Notes under the pieces: generated by a model | The model's database searches: none | What the model saw: only the letters and a program-made list of their open reading frames with translations | Told to the model about the DNA's origin: nothing | Translations under genes and position numbers: made by a program | Shown: positions 12,024 to 54,154 of the stretch, piece after piece | Position numbering within the stretch: the first letter of the stretch is position 1 | Layout: each line of letters opens with the position of its first letter | Origin: Fibrobacter sp. | Lineage (GTDB): Bacteria; Fibrobacterota; Fibrobacteria; Fibrobacterales; Fibrobacteraceae | Assembly: GCA_024398955.1 (NCBI GenBank) | Contig: JAKSIG010000013.1 | Location: 1-64,000 of the forward strand | Direction: 5' to 3' | Length of the DNA stretch: 64,000 nucleotides

Positions 12024-12273
12024 GGACTCAATTTTAGAAATTTGCCCCTAAAATTCACTATGTACGACCTTGGACTAATTACGATTTTTGAAAAGTTTGT
12101 CGTGACTATCGGCAAAACCTATAACAAGAAATAGTCCGTTTATATACAGACTGCATTTTTACCCCGCAATTTTTATAAAGGACAATAAAAAAACTCCTAT
12201 AGGTGCCTTTTTTTCAAAAAATGCCGTTTTTTCGGGATTCATCCAGTATTTGTGATAATCTTCACATTCCTTT
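12024..12273. other. AT-rich intergenic stretch between metH and the regulator
   Basis: No gene seen. It holds the short metH promoter region next to 12024, one reversed copy of the AT-rich word GCAATTTTTATAAA (12166-12179), a CCTATAGG palindrome flanked by A and T runs near 12190-12212, and a TTTTTTCAAAAAATGCCG segment near 12212. The remainder shows no structure I can name. Confidence 0.5.
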
Positions 12274-12337
12274 TGGACAAAACGTCCACAGCAATTTGTT
12301 TAATTGATTATCTTTTGATATGGCGAAAGTCTATCTT
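12274..12337 (+). promoter_or_regulatory. Palindromic operator plus -10 of the TIGR02147 gene
   Basis: TGGACAAAACGTCCA (12274-12288, centre 12281). A TATCTT box starts at 12332, exactly 51 bp on. The gene start is 34 bp further. This is the only copy found before a non-enzyme gene. A second TATCTT at 12309 does not keep the spacing. Confidence 0.8.
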
Positions 12338-12365
12338 ATGTTTGTAAAGATTTGGATAGATTACT

Positions 12366-13229
12366 ATGGTTACGTTTTCTGACATCGTGGATTACCGCGA
12401 ATTCCTAAAGGCCTTCTACGACCGCAAAAAGGCAGAGATGCCTTTCTACAGCTATCGTATGATGGGCGATAAGTTGGGTCTTGATTCCAGCTATCTATAT
12501 AGGGTGCTCCAGAAGAAGCAGCACCTGCCTGCCCGTGCTTTGCCCGCTGCCAAGGAAATGCTAGACCTTTCTGGTCGCGAAGCTGAATACTTCGACCTGC
12601 TATTTTCCGCCTCTGTTACCAAGGACAAGGCTCAGCGCGAAGAACTGATGGCCAAGGCGCTCTCTCTAAGAGACGTGAATCGTCATAGCCTGGTCGCTGC
12701 AGAACTTAAGCTTCTGGAAAACTGGTGGATTCCCGCCGTTCGCGCTTACCTGGAACTGAATGGTGGCGTGGTGAACCTGAAGCAGATCGCTCATGACATC
12801 TGCCCGCCTATTACCGAGGCTCAGGCTCAAGAAGCCATTGATACCCTGCTGGAAGTGGGTCTTGTCAAGAAGATGGCTTCTGGTAAACTTGCTCTTACCG
12901 ACGCTCATCTGACCGCTGGTGGCCCCGAGAAGAAGGCTGCCGTGCGCAAGTTCCAGCGTCAGGTGTTGTCTTTAGCTAGTGATGCTCTTGACAATGTCCC
13001 TGTGGACGAAAGAAATATTTCTACTCTTACGTTGTCAGTCGACCAGTCTTGTTTTGAAGATTTGGGAGACATGCTCCGTGAATTCAGACGTCTGGTTCAA
13101 AAGCGCGTCGATGGCGCCAAGAATCCCGATCGTGTGATGCAACTGTCGATGGCCTTCTACCCGGTAGCCCGCAAGGGTGGGGTTGGCTCTGTAGATGCGA
13201 CGGAGGTTGGCAAAAGGGAGACAAAATGA
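12366..13229 (+). CDS. TIGR02147-family DNA-binding protein, candidate regulator of the hemicellulase island
   Basis: A 287-residue member of TIGR02147, a large paralogous family of Fibrobacter. The N-terminal part contains YREFLKAFYDRKKAEMPFYS, then a helix-turn-helix-like LGLDSSYLYRVLQKKQHLP (about residues 39-57). The middle (about 110-175) has a second winged-helix-like region with PITEAQAQEAIDTLLEVGLV, and the tail holds VMQLSMAFYPVARK. The function of the family is not established; the fold suggests DNA binding. Its stop overlaps the ATG of a lipoprotein gene by 4 bp. Its own promoter carries the palindrome found before 13 enzyme genes downstream, so it may regulate itself and them. No strong ribosome site is visible before the ATG. 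Confidence 0.8.
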   Translation: MVTFSDIVDYREFLKAFYDRKKAEMPFYSYRMMGDKLGLDSSYLYRVLQKKQHLPARALPAAKEMLDLSGREAEYFDLLFSASVTKDKAQREELMAKALSLRDVNRHSLVAAELKLLENWWIPAVRAYLELNGGVVNLKQIAHDICPPITEAQAQEAIDTLLEVGLVKKMASGKLALTDAHLTAGGPEKKAAVRKFQRQVLSLASDALDNVPVDERNISTLTLSVDQSCFEDLGDMLREFRRLVQKRVDGAKNPDRVMQLSMAFYPVARKGGVGSVDATEVGKRETK

Positions 13230-14614
13230 AAAAGTGGGTGTGGCATATAAGTCTAGCTGCTGCGAGCGCATTCGGTGCGCTTTTTGTCGCGTGCAGTAAC
13301 GACAAAACCGCAGGCTCTTCGTTCGAGACGGAGAACTCGGTTGCCTCTGTGGCTATGAAAGTCCAGCTGCCCGATGGCAATCCTGCTGCTCGTACCCAGG
13401 TTCTGGTGCGTCCTAGCAGTTTCTTGGCTGGCGCAAGTTCTCGTGCTATTGATGCTTCTGTTGCAGGTGATGTTGTAGAGTCTGATTCTGCTGCAGGTAT
13501 CTTTAATGAAACGACAGACGACCAGGGCCGGTTGAACCTGCCTAAGATGAAACCGGGTTCCTATGTCATCGAAGTCCGTGGCGAAACCATGAAGGCTGTC
13601 GCTAGCGTCGATGTCAAGGATAGTTCCTGCGATTCTGTTTCTATGACTCTTGCAAAGACCGGTTCCCTTAAGGGCCAGGTGGTGATGCCGTATCGCGCAT
13701 CTTCTGTGTCTGTGGGTATCCAGGGTCTTGATTATGTTGTTCAAACTGACGGCCATGGCGAGTTCGAATTTACCTCTCTGCCTGCTGGCGAGTTCAGCGC
13801 TGTGGGCTTCATTTACACCGAACAGGAAATTGCTGGCGGTGAAAGTGTTGGTACCACTCAGATTCTGGGTTCCAAGGTCGTTGAAATTTCTACTAAGTCT
13901 GGTAACGGCGACGTAGAAGATGTTATTATCGGCTCTCGCCCGGTTCCTGTTCCTGTGGATACTGTACCCGAAGATACCGTGGCCGAAGACACTACTCCGG
14001 CTTACCCCTACGTTCTGTTCGAAGATTTCGAAGACAGCACTTACGGCTGGTATACTACGGTTTCTCGCTATGCCGAGGCTGCGCTTAGCGCCGATGAAGC
14101 TGGATTCGATCGCGATGGTCTTTGTGCCCGCTTTGAATATCAGGCTGACTCCATGAGCACCTGGACCTTGATGGGTCGTGCCTTTACGCGCCCGCAGGAT
14201 CTGAGTGATTTGGACTCTGTGGTCTTCTGGGTTCGTGCAACTGAGCGCGACAGCCAGTGGGTAAGCTTCTCCTTCGATGTCCTGGTCGACAGTGCAACTG
14301 CTGCCGAAACCGGCTACGAAAATGGAAAGTCCTGGATTCATTTCCGCAAGTTGAGTACCGAATGGAACCGTCTGGTGGTTTATCCGGATTCCTTGATCCC
14401 GACCGATTCCATAGAAGTGAATGCAGGAAACATTGGCTGGGACGCTGTCAAGACCCACGTGACCAACATCAACGTGTTTGCCGGCAGCCATAAGAAGGGT
14501 TCTTCTCACGAACTGTTTGTCGATGATATCGAGTTCTTCGGTGCCGAAATTGATGAATCTGTTGCAGAAGAAACGTCTGAAGAAGCTGAATCCAAGAAAA
14601 AGTCTGAAGAATAA
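13226..14614 (+). CDS. Lipoprotein with regulatory-like repeats and a CBM11-like domain, partner of the regulator
   Basis: A 462-residue predicted lipoprotein. The N-terminus is a short basic and hydrophobic signal ending FVAC, with Cys23 as the acylation site. Residues about 40-215 hold two carboxypeptidase-regulatory-like beta units, each with a DDQG or DGHG turn followed by a PG- or AG-containing strand (KPGSYVIEV, PAGEFSAVGF). After a Pro/Thr/Glu linker, residues about 265-445 form a galactose-binding-like sandwich resembling CBM11: FEDFEDSTYGWY at the front, a central DLDSVVFWVRA strand, and LFVDDIEFFG at the end. The tail is Glu/Ser/Lys-rich. Translational coupling to the TIGR02147 gene suggests the two proteins act together; sensing polysaccharide at the envelope is an inference. 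Confidence 0.75.
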   Translation: MKKWVWHISLAAASAFGALFVACSNDKTAGSSFETENSVASVAMKVQLPDGNPAARTQVLVRPSSFLAGASSRAIDASVAGDVVESDSAAGIFNETTDDQGRLNLPKMKPGSYVIEVRGETMKAVASVDVKDSSCDSVSMTLAKTGSLKGQVVMPYRASSVSVGIQGLDYVVQTDGHGEFEFTSLPAGEFSAVGFIYTEQEIAGGESVGTTQILGSKVVEISTKSGNGDVEDVIIGSRPVPVPVDTVPEDTVAEDTTPAYPYVLFEDFEDSTYGWYTTVSRYAEAALSADEAGFDRDGLCARFEYQADSMSTWTLMGRAFTRPQDLSDLDSVVFWVRATERDSQWVSFSFDVLVDSATAAETGYENGKSWIHFRKLSTEWNRLVVYPDSLIPTDSIEVNAGNIGWDAVKTHVTNINVFAGSHKKGSSHELFVDDIEFFGAEIDESVAEETSEEAESKKKSEE

Positions 14615-14713: not shown

Positions 14714-14777
14714 TTGACAAGTTGTCCATAGAACGTTTGTGCCTGGCTGAAAAAAATTGTTTTTTCAAAGATATCTT
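14714..14777 (+). promoter_or_regulatory. Palindromic operator plus -10 of the first GH43 gene
   Basis: TTGACAAGTTGTCCA (centre 14721) and TATCTT from 14772, 51 bp apart. Gene start at 14826. Confidence 0.8.
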
Positions 14778-17210: not shown

Positions 17211-17274
17211 TGGACAATTTGTCAATGGGATTTGCATGGCCTTAGGGAATACTTATTCTAAATGAGAATATTTT
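17211..17274 (+). promoter_or_regulatory. Palindromic operator plus -10 of the GH30 gene
   Basis: TGGACAATTTGTCAA (centre 17218) and TATTTT from 17269, 51 bp apart. Gene start at 17324. Confidence 0.8.
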
Positions 17275-19599: not shown

Positions 19600-19663
19600 T
19601 GGACTTTTTATCCATAAATCCTTTATAAAAAAGACGGCTTTTTGTTCTTGCAGGAAATAATTT
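19600..19663 (+). promoter_or_regulatory. Palindromic operator plus -10 of the CE6 gene
   Basis: TGGACTTTTTATCCA (centre 19607) and TAATTT from 19658, 51 bp apart. Gene start at 19695. Confidence 0.75.
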
Positions 19664-21486: not shown

Positions 21487-21550
21487 TTGATAAAATGTCA
21501 ATGAAAGGTTGTAGGCCAATGCGCTTTTTTGATGTATCAGTAGGTAATTT
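21487..21550 (+). promoter_or_regulatory. Palindromic operator plus -10 of the second GH43 gene
   Basis: TTGATAAAATGTCAA (centre 21494; symmetry extends to TTCATTGA...TCAATGAA) and TAATTT from 21545, 51 bp apart. Gene start at 21602. Confidence 0.8.
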
Positions 21551-24044: not shown

Positions 24045-24108
24045 TGGACAAACTATCCATGGAACTTGCTTTAGCTTTTGTGCGGGCTGCCCTATTTTCG
24101 TGTAATTT
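24045..24108 (+). promoter_or_regulatory. Palindromic operator plus -10 of the CE1-type esterase gene
   Basis: TGGACAAACTATCCA (centre 24052) and TAATTT from 24103, 51 bp apart. Gene start at 24169. Confidence 0.75.
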
Positions 24109-25820: not shown

Positions 25821-25884
25821 TTGACAAAACGTCCATGAAAGGTGTGGCTTTGCCGCGCCTTTTTCTTGCATAAGCAGGTATTTT
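25821..25884 (+). promoter_or_regulatory. Palindromic operator plus -10 of the GH27 gene
   Basis: TTGACAAAACGTCCA (centre 25828) and TATTTT from 25879, 51 bp apart. A terminator for the previous gene sits between the two. Gene start at 25915. Confidence 0.8.
25840..25864 (+). terminator. Terminator lodged inside the GH27 promoter region
   Basis: AGGTGTGGC TTT GCCGCGCCT, a 9-bp stem with two G-U pairs, then TTTT. It lies between the operator and the -10 box of the next gene. Confidence 0.75.
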
Positions 25885-27948: not shown

Positions 27949-28037
27949 GTGCCTGAAATAGTAAGTTATTGTCTGCAAGGCGTTTTTTTTGGGGAAAATG
28001 GTGCAATTTTAAGTATTTTATCCGATGTGATTCAAGT

Positions 28038-28053
28038 TTGGCACGGACTTTGC
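28038..28053 (+). promoter_or_regulatory. Sigma-54 (RpoN) type promoter
   Basis: TTGGCACGGACTTTGC matches the -24/-12 consensus YTGGCACGrNNNTTGC. GG (28040-28041) and GC (28052-28053) are separated by the required 10 bp. Transcription would start near 28065, 25 bp before the GTG start. No enhancer site was identified. Confidence 0.7.
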
Positions 28054-28089
28054 GATAAGGGCGTGAACAACAAACAAAAGAGGTTTATT

Positions 28090-28542
28090 GTGAAGACAAA
28101 ACTGATGCCCGCAATCGCATTCTCCCTGGTGGGATTCTTTGCATCTGCATCCTTGGCTCAGGAAGATGCTCCTGTGGTTGACCAGCCCGCAGTTTCTGAA
28201 GAGGTGGCAACCGAGGCTGCCGATGTGAAGGCTGACAAGGCAACTAAGGAAGATCCTCGTGCCGATCGAGCCAAGGAACGTTTTGAACGCAAGGATGCCA
28301 AAAAGGCTGAAATTGCAAACCACAAGGCCGAAAAAGACGCTCAGAAGGCTGAAAAGAAGGCCTTGAAGGACGAACGCAAGGCCGAAAAGGACGCTCAGAA
28401 AGCTGAAAAGAAGGCCTTGAAGGATGAACGCAAGGCCGAAAAGGACGCCCAGAAGGCTGAAAAGAAGGCTTTGATGGACGAACGCAAGGCCGAAAAGAAG
28501 GCCGCCAAGGAAGAACGTAAGGCTGATCGTCAGAAAGATTAA
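28090..28542 (+). CDS. Secreted Lys/Glu/Ala-rich repeat protein
   Basis: 150 residues from GTG 28090, preceded by AGAGGT. The signal peptide ends SLA (about 23); the mature part begins QEDAPVVDQP and turns into highly charged sequence. From about residue 78 there are three tandem copies of the 18-residue unit KAEKDAQKAEKKALKDER and a degenerate fourth, predicted to be a long solvent-exposed helix or coiled coil. I do not recognise a family. It lacks a CBM and the C-terminal module of its neighbours, and its promoter is sigma-54-like, so it appears to be an insertion in the island under separate control. An envelope spacer or cation-binding role would be speculation. Confidence 0.65.
   Translation: MKTKLMPAIAFSLVGFFASASLAQEDAPVVDQPAVSEEVATEAADVKADKATKEDPRADRAKERFERKDAKKAEIANHKAEKDAQKAEKKALKDERKAEKDAQKAEKKALKDERKAEKDAQKAEKKALMDERKAEKKAAKEERKADRQKD
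28324..28485 (+). repeat. Three tandem 54-bp coding repeats
   Basis: Units 28324-28377, 28378-28431 and 28432-28485, nearly identical, encoding an 18-residue Lys/Glu/Ala unit. A partial fourth unit follows. Direct repeats of this kind can expand or contract by slippage. Confidence 0.9.
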
Positions 28543-28549
28543 TAGCCTT

Positions 28550-28613
28550 TTGACAAAATGTCAATGAAAGGTGCCTGAAGAGTAAATCTTCAGGCCCTTT
28601 TTGTAGATATCTT
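28550..28613 (+). promoter_or_regulatory. Palindromic operator plus -10 of the GH5 gene
   Basis: TTGACAAAATGTCAA (centre 28557) and TATCTT from 28608, 51 bp apart. The leader to the start at 28718 is about 100 bases, the longest in the set. Confidence 0.8.
28573..28602 (+). terminator. Terminator lodged inside the GH5 promoter region
   Basis: GCCTGAAG, seven-base loop, CTTCAGGC, then CCTTTTT. It ends transcription of the Lys/Glu protein gene between the operator and the -10 box of the next gene. Confidence 0.85.
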
Positions 28614-30722: not shown

Positions 30723-32750
30723 ATGTTTGAAAAAATTAGTGTTAGGTCACTTCTCTCTATCGCAGCTGTTGCAGTTCTGCCGAGTAGCGTATTTGCTGCA
30801 ACGACTTTGAACGTAAGCCTTGGCGATAGCATTCGTCCGGTAACCCATGTGGCTTCCGGCTCGCTCTACGGCTTTACAGAGACCCTCCCCAGCAATGTGG
30901 ATGCCGATGTGGCTCCCCTTAAGCCCAATGTGTTCCTGGCTCCCGCACGTAGCGGTAATGGCCGCCAGCAGCCCATTGGCGGCGCCTTCCTGATTTCTCC
31001 CCGTCTCAAGAATACCACCGCAAAGGTCCAGATTCGCCTTGCCGATATTTTGCCGGGTTGGCCCTACAAGTACCAGAATTGGGATAGCTGGGAAAAGGAA
31101 GTCACTTCTGTCATTAACGACAAGAAGTCTTCTGCAGTTCAGAACTTTGACGGCTACGAAATCTGGAACGAACCCAACGACACCTGGAAAGGTTCCGATA
31201 ACTTCGAAAGGGATCTGTGGAAGCCGACATACGACTTGATTCGCAAACTTGATCCGGGCGCTAAAATCATCGGACCGTCCTATTCCTATTACAACTCCTC
31301 CAGGATGGAAAACTTCCTCAAGTTCTGTGTACAGAACAACTGCCTGCCCGATGTGATCAGCTGGCACCAGTGGGGTTCCGAAGGCTTTGTTGGCGCCCTG
31401 GAAAACCTGCGCAGCCTCGAAAAGAAGTACAACATTTCTCCCCGCGCCATCAGCATTAATGAATACTCCGATGGAGAACACACCTATGAAGGCTGCCCGG
31501 GAATTTCTGTTCCCTTCATTGCTAAGTTTGAACGCCACGGCGTTGAAAGTGCAATGATTTCCTGGTGGTTCGTACCGCTTCCAGGTCGCTTGGGTAGCTT
31601 GCTTACCGCTCAGAACCAGCGCGGTGGTGGTTGGCATCTGTACAAGTGGTACGGTGACATGTCTGGCTACATGGCCAAGGTTACCCCTCCCAACGACAAG
31701 AGTGCCGGTGTCGATGGCTTTGCTGCTGTAGATGCCAAGCAGAACTATGCAAGCGTCGTTATTGGCGGAAACACCCTGGGTGATGTCAATGTGGTCTTTG
31801 ACAAGATTCCGGCCTTCTTGGGCGGCAAGGTCAAGGCCATTGTGGAACGTGTTGTCTGGAAGGACAAGGATACTGCGGTCCCCAAGACCGATACCCTTTC
31901 TACCAAGGAATACACCATGAACGGAACCACTCTTACCGTTCCGCTGAATATCGAAAGTAAGTTCTATGGTTACCGTGTCTACCTGACTCCTGTTAACGTT
32001 CCTCTGAAGCCCTACAAGGATGTAATTGAACTCCCCGGTAAGGTGGAAGCAGAAAACTACGATGTGGCTGGTCAGGGATTCTCTTACTTCGATAACGATG
32101 CCGAAAACAGGGCTGGTGATTACCGTGAAGATGGCGTTGATATTGAAAAGGCTGGCGATAACTATGTAATCGGTTATACCGAAGCCAATGAATGGCTCAA
32201 GTATTCTGTAGACGTAGTTTCCGAAGGCGAATACGAAATTACTGCAAATGTAGCTGCCGCCTCTGATACCAAGGGCTTCAAGCTGTTCCTGGATGACGAG
32301 GAACTGACGGGTGAATATACCATTCCTGCTACAGGTGAAGATTGGAAAACCTATAAGGTCGTGAAGGTTGGCAGCGCCAAGCTCACTGCTGGTAAGCATG
32401 TGCTGAAGCTTCAGATTGACGGCCCCTACGTGAATATTGACTGGGTCAATTTTGCGGAACCTGTTCCCGAAGTTCCGGAAACTCCCGAAACGGCAGATTC
32501 GACTGACGTTGTCGATACCAACTCTATAGCTATTGGACAGTTCGTGGATCGTATGAATGGCCTTGGCCTGAAGATCGCTAATGAGGCCTTTGCAGTCTTT
32601 GACCTGAATGGCTCCTTCCTTGGAAAGGTTGCTGCAAGGGATTTCCAGAGTCTGCGCCACGAAACTCGTAATCTGGTAAAGAAGGATGGCCTCTACATTG
32701 CCAAGTCTCTAAAGTCTGGTTCTGTAGTTCGTCTGAATATTTCCAGATAA
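30723..32750 (+). CDS. Secreted clan GH-A glycosidase, GH39-like, with CBM
   Basis: 675 residues; AAAGG precedes the ATG. The signal peptide ends SVFA (25). A barrel domain at about 27-350 has an acid/base motif EIWNEPNDTW and a likely nucleophile in ISINEYSDGEH, a pattern closest to GH39; a beta domain follows to about 425. GH39 members are beta-xylosidases or related enzymes, but the match is weak and the family could differ. CBM at about 429-580 (LPGKVEAENYD) belongs to the second CBM subtype of the island. C-terminal module at about 610-675. This is the only plus-strand enzyme gene of the island with no copy of the palindromic operator at the expected position. Confidence 0.65.
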   Translation: MFEKISVRSLLSIAAVAVLPSSVFAATTLNVSLGDSIRPVTHVASGSLYGFTETLPSNVDADVAPLKPNVFLAPARSGNGRQQPIGGAFLISPRLKNTTAKVQIRLADILPGWPYKYQNWDSWEKEVTSVINDKKSSAVQNFDGYEIWNEPNDTWKGSDNFERDLWKPTYDLIRKLDPGAKIIGPSYSYYNSSRMENFLKFCVQNNCLPDVISWHQWGSEGFVGALENLRSLEKKYNISPRAISINEYSDGEHTYEGCPGISVPFIAKFERHGVESAMISWWFVPLPGRLGSLLTAQNQRGGGWHLYKWYGDMSGYMAKVTPPNDKSAGVDGFAAVDAKQNYASVVIGGNTLGDVNVVFDKIPAFLGGKVKAIVERVVWKDKDTAVPKTDTLSTKEYTMNGTTLTVPLNIESKFYGYRVYLTPVNVPLKPYKDVIELPGKVEAENYDVAGQGFSYFDNDAENRAGDYREDGVDIEKAGDNYVIGYTEANEWLKYSVDVVSEGEYEITANVAAASDTKGFKLFLDDEELTGEYTIPATGEDWKTYKVVKVGSAKLTAGKHVLKLQIDGPYVNIDWVNFAEPVPEVPETPETADSTDVVDTNSIAIGQFVDRMNGLGLKIANEAFAVFDLNGSFLGKVAARDFQSLRHETRNLVKKDGLYIAKSLKSGSVVRLNISR

Positions 32751-33025: not shown

Positions 33026-33061
33026 CATCCCATTGACAACTTGTCCATGGGATGTTTTTTT
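33026..33061 (+). terminator. Terminator hairpin formed by the extended operator
   Basis: CATCCCATTGACAA, one base, TTGTCCATGGGATG (one mismatch), followed by seven T. The 15-bp operator is the top of this hairpin. No other terminator follows the small gene upstream. Confidence 0.7.
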
Positions 33062-35858: not shown

Positions 35859-35863
35859 TCTAT

Positions 35864-35952
35864 ATGCTACAGTTTGTAGTATGAATTTCTATAAAATTCA
35901 TTTTTTTATAAAAATTGCGTTTTTTTTGTGAAATTCATAAATTTTGTAGCAT
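35864..35952 (+). promoter_or_regulatory. Distinct inverted repeats before the second TIGR02147 gene
   Basis: ATGCTACA-GTT-TGTAGTAT (35864-35882, one mismatch), a further exact TGTAGCAT half-site at 35945-35952, and the palindrome ATGAATTT-N5-AAATTCAT (35881-35901) with another AAATTCAT at 35931. None resembles the TGGACA palindrome of the island. The downstream promoter reads TTGCGA (35961), 17 bp, TAAATT (35984). Confidence 0.55.
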
Positions 35953-35995
35953 AAAATCTATTGCGAGTATAGAGAGCAAAACTTAAATTATAGGT

Positions 35996-36829
35996 ATGAA
36001 AGAAATCGTAGATTATCACAGCTATCGAAAGTACATGCAGGACTTTTACGAGGAACGCAAGCGCTGTTCCGCCTTTTCCTGGCGTGAATTTTCGAAGATT
36101 GCAGGATTTTCTTCGCCTAACTATATGAAGGTGGTTTGCGAAGGCAAGAGCCGCCTCAGCAAGGCGGGGGTAGAGAGCGTGTCCCGCGCCATGGGGCTGG
36201 AAGGTTTCCAGGTGGAATACTTTACCGCCATGGTTGATTTCGAGGATGCAAAGACGGAGGCGAAAAAGAAGGCTGCCTTCCAGCGGATGCAGGACATCGC
36301 CAAGGAAAATCGGATGCGGGTCATCGATGCCGACGCCTACCATTATTTTGAATCCTGGGTGAATCCGGTCTTGCGCGAGTTGGCGCCGCTCATGCCTGGG
36401 GCAAAACCTCTGGAAATGGCTCGTATGTGCTACCCTGTGGTCAGTGCCGCCGAGGTCCGTCATTCTCTGGATTTCATGGTGTCTGCGGGACTTCTCAAGA
36501 AAGAGGGGGAGGTGTACGTGCAGACGGAGAAGTCGGTAACGGGTTCTGCCGAGGCAATCCCGCTGGCGCTTCGCTCCATGCATCGCCAGATGTCAAAGCT
36601 TGCTACCGAAGCCATTGATGACCGCCCTGTGACGGAGCGCTTTATGGCAGGCGTCACCTTGGGTATTTCGCCGAAGACTTACGAACGTATTGCACAGGAA
36701 ATAGATGCGTTCCGCCAGAAGCTGGTGGCCATTGCCGCCGAAGAAGAAAGCTACACTCAGGTGTACCGCGTGAATTTACAGATGTTCCCTTTGACAAAGG
36801 ATGTTAACGGGGGCGAGGAGGAAAAATGA
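35996..36829 (+). CDS. Second TIGR02147-family DNA-binding protein
   Basis: 277 residues, the same family as the protein at 12366. The N-terminal YRKYMQDFYEERKRCSAFSW is followed by a helix-turn-helix-like FSSPNYMKVVCEGKSRLSKA (about residues 41-60). The tail holds the family-typical YRVNLQMFPLTKD. The -10 box TAAATT begins 12 bp before the ATG and no ribosome site is visible, so the mRNA is probably leaderless. Stop overlaps the next ATG by 4 bp (ATGA). The promoter has its own set of repeats, and the gene sits between two enzyme genes of the island. Its target is unknown. Confidence 0.8.
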   Translation: MKEIVDYHSYRKYMQDFYEERKRCSAFSWREFSKIAGFSSPNYMKVVCEGKSRLSKAGVESVSRAMGLEGFQVEYFTAMVDFEDAKTEAKKKAAFQRMQDIAKENRMRVIDADAYHYFESWVNPVLRELAPLMPGAKPLEMARMCYPVVSAAEVRHSLDFMVSAGLLKKEGEVYVQTEKSVTGSAEAIPLALRSMHRQMSKLATEAIDDRPVTERFMAGVTLGISPKTYERIAQEIDAFRQKLVAIAAEEESYTQVYRVNLQMFPLTKDVNGGEEEK

Positions 36830-38433
36830 AAATGTTGAACTTTGCGAACTTCAAAAGGGGTGCGCGGTTTAGTAAAGTTGCGCTGTTGGGTGCTGCTTTT
36901 TGTATGTCGACTCTTGTGGCCTGTTCCGATTCCAGCTCCACTGACCCGGAGTTGACCGGTTCCACCAATGAACCCAACGCAGTAGCGGGCGATTCTACGC
37001 TGACGGATACCACCGGGCATAAAAATCCTGTGGTTTCTCCTGCGGATTTGACGGCTGAACAGATTGCTATTCTGGAAAAGAGCTTCGACATATTCAAGGG
37101 CCCAAAGCCGTCTTACACAGAAGATAGTTTTGGTGCCCCGGTAATTTCCGATGACAACATGTGGATAGAACCGGATTCCCAATTTGTCTATATCATGGAA
37201 AAAATCATCGTTCCTTTTGGCGGTTGGGGTGGTGGCCGTAGCCAGTATCGATACATGAGTGAGGATCGTCTTCGCGAATGCTTTGTGGAAAGTGATTTCA
37301 GCGGGTCTGCCGTATTTTCCATTCGCGAATACCAGAAGAATCCCCGTTTTTTGAATGGGTTCCTTTATGAACATTGGAAGAGTATTGAATCTGCCCGCTA
37401 TACGGTAGAAGAGGGCGATACGGTCGTCATCAAGTCGGTGGGTACAGGCGTTGCTACCAGTGGCTTCTGGGGCCTCGATTACAGCTGTGCAGAATTTTTG
37501 CTGAACTTCAAGGATGATTGCAAAAAGCAAAATGGCCTGTTCAAGGATTTTGGTGACGGCTGCCGCAAAGGTAAACCTATCGTGTCCTGCGCCTTCTTCC
37601 TGCCAGAAGGAGCTACAACCCAGTCCTACATTGACAACTACGAGCAGGAACTGATTGACTTCTGTAAGGAAGATTCCCTGTGGTACGCCCCTAAGGATGA
37701 CCCTGCCCATACTCCGGGCGGTTGCATGGGCGAAAGCGGCGTAGATGAAAATGGACAGTCTTTCAATAGGATTGAGTGTACCTATCAGAATGGGGATCCT
37801 ATGGACCTGAGCGGCTGGGAAATGGACGATAACTATGATCCGGAGGAAAGCTCTATCTATAACGCCTGGCGACTGAATGTGAAACGGACTTATGACGCCT
37901 ATAGGAAGCAGTTCGCGGTATGGGAGATCGTCACCGACACCATGATTTATTTAAAAAATTATCCCGAATTAAATTCCGGAGATGGCTTTGCCTATAACAC
38001 CTTGCCGGAAGGTGACGCAAGTAAAGGTTACAGAACGGAAGGAATGTATCCGCTGAACGATACGCTGGTAGGGAAGTTCTTCCCCGAGGTATTGAACAAT
38101 CCTCGTATGGTTGAAAAACTGACGGATGACGAAAACTCCGGAACCTACTTTATGGTAGTTCTTAAGGATGTGGGCGCCAAGGGACATGTCCTGAAGTCTA
38201 TCGGGCAGGACGAAATTCTTGTGACGGATGTGGTGAAGTCTGGTGACTGCCCCGCCGACGAGACGGTCTATTATTCCGCATTCCTCGTGAAGGGCAATCC
38301 CGACTGGGATGTTTCGGGAAAGACGGTCCGCCGTCAGGTTTTCGAAAGCCCGCTTTGGAGTTGTAACGATCCCGAAAGTCTGGAACGTATTGAACCTTAC
38401 GGCCAATGGATTGTGCCCGATATGGTAGACTGA
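36826..38433 (+). CDS. Lipoprotein of unknown function paired with the second regulator
   Basis: 535 residues. Lipoprotein signal with lipobox LVAC and Cys33, followed by a Ser/Thr/Asp linker (SDSSSTDPELTGSTNEP). The rest is Cys-containing, rich in aromatic residues and Gly, and matches no family I recognise; it does not resemble the sugar-binding domain of the lipoprotein at 13226. Translational coupling to a TIGR02147 gene is exactly as in the first pair. By analogy it may be an envelope partner for the regulator, but no membrane-spanning link is visible in either protein. Confidence 0.7.
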   Translation: MKMLNFANFKRGARFSKVALLGAAFCMSTLVACSDSSSTDPELTGSTNEPNAVAGDSTLTDTTGHKNPVVSPADLTAEQIAILEKSFDIFKGPKPSYTEDSFGAPVISDDNMWIEPDSQFVYIMEKIIVPFGGWGGGRSQYRYMSEDRLRECFVESDFSGSAVFSIREYQKNPRFLNGFLYEHWKSIESARYTVEEGDTVVIKSVGTGVATSGFWGLDYSCAEFLLNFKDDCKKQNGLFKDFGDGCRKGKPIVSCAFFLPEGATTQSYIDNYEQELIDFCKEDSLWYAPKDDPAHTPGGCMGESGVDENGQSFNRIECTYQNGDPMDLSGWEMDDNYDPEESSIYNAWRLNVKRTYDAYRKQFAVWEIVTDTMIYLKNYPELNSGDGFAYNTLPEGDASKGYRTEGMYPLNDTLVGKFFPEVLNNPRMVEKLTDDENSGTYFMVVLKDVGAKGHVLKSIGQDEILVTDVVKSGDCPADETVYYSAFLVKGNPDWDVSGKTVRRQVFESPLWSCNDPESLERIEPYGQWIVPDMVD

Positions 38434-38491: not shown

Positions 38492-38525
38492 ATCCCATGG
38501 ACAACTTGTCAATGGGATTTCTTTT
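38492..38525 (+). terminator. Terminator hairpin formed by the extended operator
   Basis: ATCCCATGGACAA, one base, TTGTCAATGGGAT (one mismatch), then TTCTTTTT. The operator forms the top of the stem, as at 33026. Confidence 0.65.
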
Positions 38526-40881: not shown

Positions 40882-40945
40882 TTGACAAAATGTCAAAGGA
40901 AATTGCGTTGAGGGCTGGTATTTTATGCCGGATAAGAAATATTTT
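40882..40945 (+). promoter_or_regulatory. Palindromic operator plus -10 of the GH2 gene
   Basis: TTGACAAAATGTCAA (centre 40889, symmetry extends by CTT/AAG) and TATTTT from 40940, 51 bp apart. Gene start at 40975. Confidence 0.82.
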
Positions 40946-45017: not shown

Positions 45018-45081
45018 TTGACAATCTGTCCACAGATGTTTTCTTTAGACTGTTGTATTTCATTGCTGGCCTAGGTATCTT
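45018..45081 (+). promoter_or_regulatory. Palindromic operator plus -10 of the GH95 gene
   Basis: TTGACAATCTGTCCA (centre 45025) and TATCTT from 45076, 51 bp apart. Gene start at 45115. Confidence 0.8.
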
Positions 45082-49967: not shown

Positions 49968-50031
49968 TGGATTTTTAGTCCATGCAAATTGCTTTTTGGG
50001 GGTAAAAATTTGGTTGTTCAGGCGATAATTT
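49968..50031 (+). promoter_or_regulatory. Palindromic operator plus -10 of the first GH10 gene
   Basis: TGGATTTTTAGTCCA (centre 49975) and TAATTT from 50026, 51 bp apart. Gene start at 50077. Confidence 0.75.
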
Positions 50032-52081: not shown

Positions 52082-52145
52082 TGGATAAAATGTCCATAGC
52101 AAATGCATTTGACTGTGAAATATTCCGACTTGGACAGGATAATTT
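52082..52145 (+). promoter_or_regulatory. Palindromic operator plus -10 of the second GH10 gene
   Basis: TGGATAAAATGTCCA (centre 52089) and TAATTT from 52140, 51 bp apart. Gene start at 52190. Confidence 0.8.
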
Positions 52146-52189
52146 TATGGATGGTTATGGGAAAACCCCAAAAAAGGATGTGGATTGTT

Positions 52190-54154
52190 ATGAAAAAGTT
52201 TTCTAAAAAGTCTGTAGCAGCTATCGCTTTGGCAGCTGCATGCGCAGTTCCGACTTTTGCAGGTCCCGGTATCGCCGATGGCGCTGCAAAGTTCGTGGGT
52301 AACATTACCCAGTCTAATACCGCTCCCGGTCCCAACGACGAATTTACCAAGCTCTGGAACCAGGCCACTGCCGAAAACGGCTGTAAGTGGGGTTCCATCG
52401 AAGGTACTCGCGGCAAATATAACTGGGCAGGTTGCGATGCCGCCTACAACTGGGCAAAGAATAACGGTGGCCATTTCAAGTTCCACGCTCTCCTCTGGGG
52501 TTCCCAGTATCCTAACTGGCTTTCTGGCCTGAGTGTGGACGAAACCAAGAAGGCCATTACCGCATGGTTCGACGCTGTAAAGGCTCATTATCCCGATATC
52601 GAGATGATTGACGTGGCCAACGAAGCTATTCGTACCGGTCCTGGCCAGTATCATTCCAACTATACCAAGACCAATATTATTCCCGCTCTCGGTGGCGATA
52701 ATAATGGTGACTACGCTTTCTTGACCACTGCTTTCAAGATGGCCCGCGAACGCTGGCCCAAGGCAATCCTGATCTATAACGACTATAACACCATCCAGTG
52801 GAACGTGGACCAGGGCATTGACCTGATCAATACCATCCGTAAGAATGGCGCTCCGGTTGACGCATACGGCCTCCAGGCTCATGACTTGATGAGCACCGGT
52901 GGTGGCTACAACGGCACCGGTGGTGGTGGCAACTGCCTTAACTATAACACCTTTAAGTCCACTATGGAAAAGATCCATAGCAAGACAAACAACTTCCCGA
53001 TTCTCATTTCTGAATACGACGTTCCTTCTACCGATGACAACATCCAGGAACAGTGCTATAAGGAACAGTTTGCATACTGGATGGAAGATCCCAATGTTGC
53101 TGGCATCACCATCTGGGGCTACATCTATGGTCATACATGGCTCGACTGTAACGGTCAGGCTAGCGGTTGTTCCGGCTTGATCAAGAACGGCCAGGATCGT
53201 AAGGCCATGACCTGGATGAGAAACTACTTGAAGTCCAACAAGGGCGTAAACACTACCGGTCTTGCCACTGGCATTGTGGCAGATCCTGAACCGCAGACTC
53301 CGTTTGGTGGCAAGGCTGCTGCCATCCCGGGTAAGATTGAAGCTGAAAACTTTGACGTTCCGGGCATTGGCGTTATCAATGGTGTTTCTGGTGCTTCCTA
53401 CAGTGTCGCAAATACCGGCAAGGGCGATTCCGGCTACCGTAAGGACGAAGGCGTAAACCTTTACAAGAACGCAACCGGTGTTGTCATCGGCTATAATGAC
53501 GAAGGCAACTGGTACGAATATACTGTTGACGTCAAGGAAACTGGCACTTACACCATGTATGCTGCAGTTGCTTCCGCTAATGCTACCTCTGGCTTTAAGC
53601 TCTCCATTGATGGCAAGGATATCACTGAAAGCATTTCCGTTCCTAAGGCTGCTGCTGGTGAAGAAAACTACAGCGACTATAACAAGGTCAATGCCGATGT
53701 TAACCTCACCTCTGGCAAGCACATTCTCCGTCTCACTGTTACTGGCGCCTGGTTCGATATCGACTACATGACCTTCGTTGCCAAGGGCGAAAAGGATCCG
53801 GAACCCATCGTTAAGGAAGATCCGGAATCCAGCACTTCCACTGGCAATGATAATTCCGGCTCCGGCGAAACTCAGAATCCGACAACTGGCGAATCTGTTG
53901 TAGGCGGCAATACCGAAGTTGGAACTCCCGATGATGGTACCGGCATCGCTCATAGCCTCCAGTTCGAATTCAAAACCCTCCAGAAGTTCGACGTATTCGA
54001 TATGCAGGGTTCCTTCATGGGCCGTCTCAATGCCTACAGCTTTGATCAGGCTATCAATACCGTCAAGCAAAGCGATGTCAAGTTTGCAAATGGTACCTAC
54101 TACATCCGTAATAAGGAAACCAAGCAGATGACCACCTTTACCATCGCTAAGTAA
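52190..54154 (+). CDS. Secreted GH10 xylanase with CBM6 (second)
   Basis: 654 residues from ATG 52190, where AAAGGATG precedes and the signal peptide (ending TFA, about 24) starts; an in-frame ATG at 52103 lies before the -10 box and is therefore excluded. GH10 barrel at about 25-355 with acid/base Glu in MIDVANEAIRTG and nucleophile Glu in ILISEYDVPSTDD. A Gly-rich loop GGGYNGTGGGGN (about 240) is absent from the first GH10. CBM6 at about 372-530 has a variant core with GNWYEYTVDV, shared with the esterase at 24169. A long Ser/Thr/Gly/Asn linker precedes the C-terminal module (about 585-654). Confidence 0.92.
   Translation: MKKFSKKSVAAIALAAACAVPTFAGPGIADGAAKFVGNITQSNTAPGPNDEFTKLWNQATAENGCKWGSIEGTRGKYNWAGCDAAYNWAKNNGGHFKFHALLWGSQYPNWLSGLSVDETKKAITAWFDAVKAHYPDIEMIDVANEAIRTGPGQYHSNYTKTNIIPALGGDNNGDYAFLTTAFKMARERWPKAILIYNDYNTIQWNVDQGIDLINTIRKNGAPVDAYGLQAHDLMSTGGGYNGTGGGGNCLNYNTFKSTMEKIHSKTNNFPILISEYDVPSTDDNIQEQCYKEQFAYWMEDPNVAGITIWGYIYGHTWLDCNGQASGCSGLIKNGQDRKAMTWMRNYLKSNKGVNTTGLATGIVADPEPQTPFGGKAAAIPGKIEAENFDVPGIGVINGVSGASYSVANTGKGDSGYRKDEGVNLYKNATGVVIGYNDEGNWYEYTVDVKETGTYTMYAAVASANATSGFKLSIDGKDITESISVPKAAAGEENYSDYNKVNADVNLTSGKHILRLTVTGAWFDIDYMTFVAKGEKDPEPIVKEDPESSTSTGNDNSGSGETQNPTTGESVVGGNTEVGTPDDGTGIAHSLQFEFKTLQKFDVFDMQGSFMGRLNAYSFDQAINTVKQSDVKFANGTYYIRNKETKQMTTFTIAK

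Follow-up and report, generated by a model that had tools for sequence, protein, structure and literature searches.

A TIGR02147 protein and its partner lipoprotein as a candidate control pair of a hemicellulase island in Fibrobacter

RESULTS

A TIGR02147 gene overlaps a lipoprotein gene

The window, a stretch of 64,000 nucleotides of Fibrobacter sp. DNA, holds a hemicellulase island and, ahead of its enzyme genes, a two-gene unit (Table 1). The initial annotation had read the gene at 12366 as a TIGR02147 gene overlapping a lipoprotein gene by 4 bp, and this was confirmed: the product scores 191.2 bits against the NCBIfam model (cutoff of 50; positions 8 to 271 of 272), and the end of the gene shares the sequence ATGA with the start of the lipoprotein reading frame. 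In Pfam, DUF4423 (PF14394; 93.8 bits) is the sole match of the protein, with no helix-turn-helix (HTH) family profile. The AlphaFold model (pLDDT, 82.5; pTM, 0.53) nevertheless begins with a predicted HTH at residues 10 to 84, made of five helices (10 to 24, 30 to 37, 41 to 48, 56 to 65, and 70 to 84) with a block pLDDT of about 87 to 93 from residue 11 of the protein. The check by structure prediction that the initial annotation had proposed thus returned five N-terminal helices in an HTH arrangement; they are followed by the winged-helix-like DUF4423 region and two long helices. The whole chain gave no Foldseek match in the PDB below an E value of 0.001; its weak matches are mainly MarR-type winged helices, with HigA, HetR, and Xre-type proteins among them, and searching the PDB sequences with a profile of the regulator returned no matches. 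The protein has no transmembrane segment (maximum Kyte-Doolittle value in a 19-residue window, 0.77).

The signal peptide of the 13226 product ends in VACSND, which identifies it as a lipoprotein. The lipobox residue Cys23 is invariant in 31 partners, and the core ETEN of the tag is invariant among the lipoprotein partners of 12366 orthologues. The modeled protein has two Ig-like β domains and a C-terminal jelly roll, whose top Foldseek match is CtCBM11 (1v0a; E value of 2.9e−8; TMt, 0.76). A CBM11-type C-terminal domain, as suggested earlier, is therefore correct by fold, while Pfam gives no CBM11 sequence-profile match; from this fold it is plausible that the lipoprotein binds polysaccharide.

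TABLE 1 Positions of the features discussed in the text
Feature	Position	Strand	Remarks
CRP-like site TGTGATAATCTTCACA, just upstream of the operator	12251–12266		Sole exact such site in the window
Operator palindrome TGGACAAAACGTCCA of the regulator gene	12274–12288		Matches conserved upstream of 65 orthologues
Promoter element TATCTT	12332–12337	+	51 bp from palindrome center; TA invariant in 31 aligned orthologue promoters
TIGR02147/DUF4423 protein, 287 aa	12366–13229	+	Proposed activator; predicted N-terminal HTH, winged-helix-like DUF4423, soluble
Partner lipoprotein, 462 aa	13226–14614	+	Lipobox Cys23, tag AGSSFETENSVA, two Ig-like β domains, CBM11-like C-terminal jelly roll
Operator before GH43-CBM6 gene 14826	14714–14728		TATCTT at 14772
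Operator before GH30-type CBM6 gene 17291	17211–17225		Palindrome and composite
Operator before SASA acetylesterase-CBM6 gene 19686	19600–19614		Composite pattern
Operator before GH43-CBM6 gene 21557	21487–21501		Palindrome and composite
Operator before esterase-CBM6 gene 24130	24045–24059		Palindrome and composite
Operator before α-galactosidase (melibiase)-CBM6 gene 25915	25821–25835		Palindrome and composite
Operator before GH5-type (Pfam Cellulase) CBM6 gene 28631	28550–28564		Palindrome and composite
Operator before GH141-type CBM6 gene 33148	33033–33047		Palindrome and composite
Operator before GH43-CBM6 gene 38594	38498–38512		Palindrome and composite
Operator before GH2-CBM6 gene 40975	40882–40896		Palindrome and composite
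Operator before GH95-CBM6 gene 45100	45018–45032		Palindrome and composite
Operator before GH10-CBM6 gene 50071	49968–49982		Composite pattern
Operator before GH10-CBM6 gene in ORF 52103–54154	52082–52096		TAATTT at 52140, inside the called ORF
Own dyad TATGCTACAGTTTGTAGTATG of the second pair	35863–35883		Matching half-site TTTTGTAGCATA at 35942–35953
Second TIGR02147 paralogue of the island, different operator class	35996–36829	+	Partner lipoprotein 36826–38433

A palindrome at a fixed distance from a promoter element

With one mismatch at most, TKGACAANNNGTCMA matches the window 20 times, both strands counted, versus 1.6 ± 1.4 times in shuffled sequences. At all 12 sites located without using the spacing, the distance from the palindrome center to the downstream element TAnYTT is exactly 51 bp. 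Two more sites, at 19600 and 49968, came from a composite pattern of palindrome and element, so that their spacing is not independent; once they are added, the distance is 51 bp at 14 of 14 island sites. When offsets from 30 to 74 bp were scanned, TAnYTT occurred 14 times at 51 bp and at most once at every other offset. The regulator gene was initially said to share its palindrome and spacing with the enzyme genes, and the 14 sites bear this out. All island composites lie on the plus strand. The exact promoter spacing and the footprint in orthologues (see below) rule out the palindrome as a terminator or coding artifact.

Searching the whole genome (3.18 Mb) with the composite pattern gave 19 matches, 14 of them in the island, and none with the reversed control. 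Of the five others, four precede genes for a SASA-CBM6 esterase, a PETase-like lipoprotein, a secreted CarboxypepD_reg protein, and a GH43-CBM35 enzyme, the last with a spacing shortened by one base; the fifth lies before a gene without assignment. For one gene of the island, the GH39-like CBM6 gene at 30723 to 32750, no palindrome could be detected at the distance of 51 bp. The GH10 gene of ORF 52103–54154 probably starts further downstream, at the later methionine of MKKFSKK, because the listed start lies upstream of the gene's own TAATTT. A small ORF between two enzyme genes (27949 to 28542) encodes tandem repeats rich in Lys, Glu, and Ala and has no Pfam match.

The palindrome accompanies orthologues of the regulator

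In all 65 orthologues read, which come from several genera and have 52 to 89% identity, the best palindrome match lies 69 to 117 bp upstream of the ATG. In 35 of them, 11 or 12 of the 12 half-site positions match; in the other 30, the count is 9 to 10, a score that is weak alone and that random windows sometimes reach, and these degenerate palindromes are T-for-C variants in the same place. When 31 orthologue upstream regions were aligned, the only invariant columns were palindrome positions and the TA of TAnnTT.

An orthologue or close homologue of the 12366 protein is present in 94 of 111 genomes of the family. Composite sites number 9 to 19 in 11 of the 12 tested genomes with an orthologue and 0 to 2 in six genomes without one (Mann-Whitney P = 0.001, with counts that are phylogenetically nonindependent). 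One of these six (G046) belongs to the same genus and is 99% complete. The exception among the 12 (G002) is from a distant genus and has an orthologue of 53% identity with a palindrome upstream and a single composite site.

TIGR02147 genes are paired with lipoprotein genes

The genome encodes 22 full-length TIGR02147 copies, and the family is present in 157 of 168 Fibrobacterota genomes. In the literature open without subscription, we found no paper on TIGR02147 and a single passing mention of DUF4423, in line with the earlier description of a large Fibrobacter paralogous family without an established role. A lipoprotein gene begins within −17 to +12 bp after 20 of the 22 full-length genes. 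Near the lipidated Cys, 17 of these 20 partners carry the tag AG-x(1-8)-[NSQ]-x(0-2)-[IVF]-A, whereas among the 53 other lipobox ORFs of the sampled regions it occurs once; because the partners also served to fit the pattern, this difference is somewhat overstated. The C-terminal domains of the partners vary and include Pectate_lyase_4, CBM_4_9, Laminin_G_3 (a lectin domain), and FISUMP/TIGR02145. The C55 pair (L044:2591-12390), for example, has a lipoprotein with a pectate lyase domain and lies beside genes for a rhamnogalacturonan lyase and two GDSL esterases. This combination of a constant tag with a variable, apparently glycan-directed domain resembles a receptor family. Given that such genes are paired across the genome and that the partners share an N-terminal tag, the 12366 regulator and its lipoprotein are likely to be functionally linked.

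Three further observations concern members of the family. The C55 regulator gene is preceded by three TGTAGAC direct repeats; TGTRGAC-type repeats recur in some orthologues and not in all, and a C55 operator as a general claim was dropped. FISUMP TIGR02145 domains end two partner lipoproteins (L055:10738-14157 and L060:7807-9333), which links two large Fibrobacter paralogous families. One TIGR02147 gene without a lipoprotein partner (L052; G000:C96:516-5900) shares its contig with a second copy, broken by one stop, at a distance of about 4 kb.

The second pair and its sister clade

The second TIGR02147 pair of the island, 35996/36826, has relatives with a dyad of the type TATGCTACA-N3-TGTAGTATA and a matching downstream half-site, and dyad and half-site covary between paralogues of the clade. 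Across the 25 sister-clade members, whether the recognition helix carries V or L agrees without exception with whether the second variable base of the half-site is G or T. On a tree built from the C-terminal region, each of the two traits changed three times, and only one to three independent comparisons exist, and we regard this covariation as suggestive, statistically not decisive. It indicates that TIGR02147 proteins may read the element before their own gene. In another genome (G048), an 89% orthologue of the second pair and the orthologue of 12366 are about 22 kb apart.

A CRP-like site before the regulator promoter

The CRP-like site upstream of the operator is retained in many orthologue promoters, and PF13545 detects a single Crp-type protein encoded in the genome. 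In Fibrobacter proteomics, the products of FSU_2263, 2264, 2269, and 2274 were higher on cellulose than on glucose, which was ascribed to catabolite repression (PMC6851124). With the FSU_2263-2274 cluster assigned by gene content as the counterpart of the island, this rise would fit CRP acting through the regulator gene. The site suggests that catabolite control enters via the regulator gene, in a chain that we infer from these elements.

DISCUSSION

In our proposal, the 12366 protein acts as a soluble transcription activator of the one-component type and would bind the palindrome TKGAYA-N3-TRTCMA as a dimer via its N-terminal HTH. Centered 51 bp upstream of the TA of TAnYTT, at roughly −60, the palindrome would allow the activator to recruit RNA polymerase from a class-I-like position and to activate its own two-gene operon (positive feedback), the 13 hemicellulase promoters of the island, and a few promoters elsewhere, while the CRP-like site before the regulator promoter would probably set the catabolite state. 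The cotranslated lipoprotein would display its CBM11-like glycan-binding domain at the envelope and is most likely the pair's cognate component for glycan capture and, as we infer, for sensing; its constant membrane-proximal tag may contact a putative shared transducer. We assign the proposal as a whole, with soluble activator, operator regulon, and sensing lipoprotein, a probability of about 0.7. Computation supports the predicted operator, spacing, regulon, and autoregulatory site.

Whether the lipoprotein is a control component is, in our estimate, close to an even call at best. The main rival holds that it is an output of the regulon only, a surface glycan-binding protein, and that the TIGR02147 protein senses a cytoplasmic cue, which could be a sugar or merely its own level as set by CRP. 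Plain effectors need neither pairing nor tag, yet the pairing is kept in 20 of 22 paralogues despite different operators and C-terminal domains, and the short tag is nearly exclusive to partners. The pair and the enzymes, however, share the same predicted operator, a CBM11 fold would be apt for capturing substrate, input from the cytoplasm could come through the CRP-like site, and the lipoprotein, with 29 to 57% identity among orthologues, evolves much faster than the regulator, as a surface protein would. A link across the membrane is also not visible: we saw no inner-membrane component able to carry the signal, and the island genes scanned encode no membrane-spanning sensor kinase, anti-sigma factor, or SusC/SusD domain. 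Weighing these points, we consider the effector-only role possible and lean against it. If the lipoprotein does sense, we tentatively suggest that Fibrobacterota may use modular sensor pairs instead of PUL-type regulators, each consisting of a TIGR02147 activator with its own operator and a lipoprotein with a constant AG-x-N-x-[IV]A tag and a variable, glycan-recognizing domain suited to the enzymes encoded nearby; through its tag, the lipoprotein would connect to a shared, putative trans-envelope transducer.

Does the 12366 protein activate or repress? Class I activators such as CRP bind a site near −60, whereas repressor sites usually overlap the promoter, vary in position, and need not keep one distance. 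Every site in the island lies upstream of its promoter element at one invariant distance, and it is this distance to TAnYTT that gives the palindrome its class-I-like placement. Repression of the operator set, relieved by a signal, would be in keeping with the frequent role of Xre-type HTH proteins as repressors, and autoregulation occurs in both modes; given the invariant spacing, we regard a repressor as unlikely and an activator as likely.

The orthologue footprint, the correlation of presence and absence, the predicted HTH, and the operator-helix covariation in the sister clade together argue that the 12366 protein very likely reads the palindrome set, a conclusion that is well supported and short of proof. 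A motif before a gene can mark a target instead of a regulator, and the palindrome might be read by the 35996 protein, by the C25 paralogue, which has one similar palindrome (TGGACAAAGAGTCCA) upstream, or by a global factor, with 12366 a mere target. We consider this quite improbable, because the palindrome is kept before the 12366 orthologue across genera, the operator set is gone where the orthologue is absent, and 35996-type proteins have their own, different dyads. Near paralogues (44 to 50% identity) mostly lack the palindrome, for which reason an operator common to them was rejected as well. The initial annotation had the 12366 product activating the operator set; the reading of the palindrome is the well-supported part of that claim, and activation is supported by the invariant spacing.

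Signaling of the RRNPP kind, with a peptide cut from the signal sequence or tag of the lipoprotein reentering the cytoplasm to bind the TIGR02147 protein, would suit an HTH protein whose gene overlaps that of a secreted neighbor and a short conserved peptide beside the lipid Cys, but it is very improbable given a tag common to paralogues, which leaves little specificity, and an AlphaFold C-terminal half of winged helix and long helices with no TPR array.

The genome paper on Fibrobacter succinogenes S85 called the regulation of cellulase genes an unanswered question and noted few recognizable regulators near these genes (PMC3079729). Our analysis names for Fibrobacter a specific and conserved candidate regulator, an operator of fixed geometry, and a predicted hemicellulase regulon. 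The 12366 member very probably switches on the whole hemicellulase island; if true, such a switch helps to answer how fiber-digesting gut bacteria control these genes. For the phylum-wide TIGR02147 paralogous family, the data point to a likely function as DNA-binding switches and suggest a pattern of operator recognition within the family. The pairing with lipoproteins raises the question of the route by which a glycan signal at the envelope would reach a soluble activator.

Several known systems bear a partial likeness to the proposed pair. RRNPP regulators (PrgX, Rgg, and PlcR) share with it an HTH regulator with an adjacent gene for a secreted partner, but here the partner is a lipoprotein of 400 to 500 residues and no TPR domain is predicted in the regulator. 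In contrast to ECF-sigma/anti-sigma surface signaling, the regulator has no transmembrane segment and the partner is a lipoprotein anchored by Cys23. Regulation of Bacteroidetes PULs (SusR, hybrid two-component systems, and ECF-sigma/anti-sigma) likewise places a locally encoded regulator and a glycan-binding lipoprotein of the envelope within a set of polysaccharide degradation genes; however, the control element of the island is a soluble HTH protein, and the scanned ORFs, a subset of all ORFs, contain no SusC/SusD Pfam match. The lipoprotein has the C-terminal jelly-roll fold of CtCBM11 (1v0a; TMt, 0.76) and differs from CBM11 in lacking a sequence-profile match to the family model. Like class I activators of the CRP type, the 12366 protein would use a palindromic site, one per promoter, whose position is constant at about 60 bp before the predicted start, although it belongs to another family, with HTH and DUF4423. 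That family, TIGR02147 (Fsuc_second)/PF14394 DUF4423, of which the protein is a member above the curated cutoff, has no function assigned in the literature open without subscription; we propose for it a defined operator, bound in a sequence-specific manner, and a partner lipoprotein.
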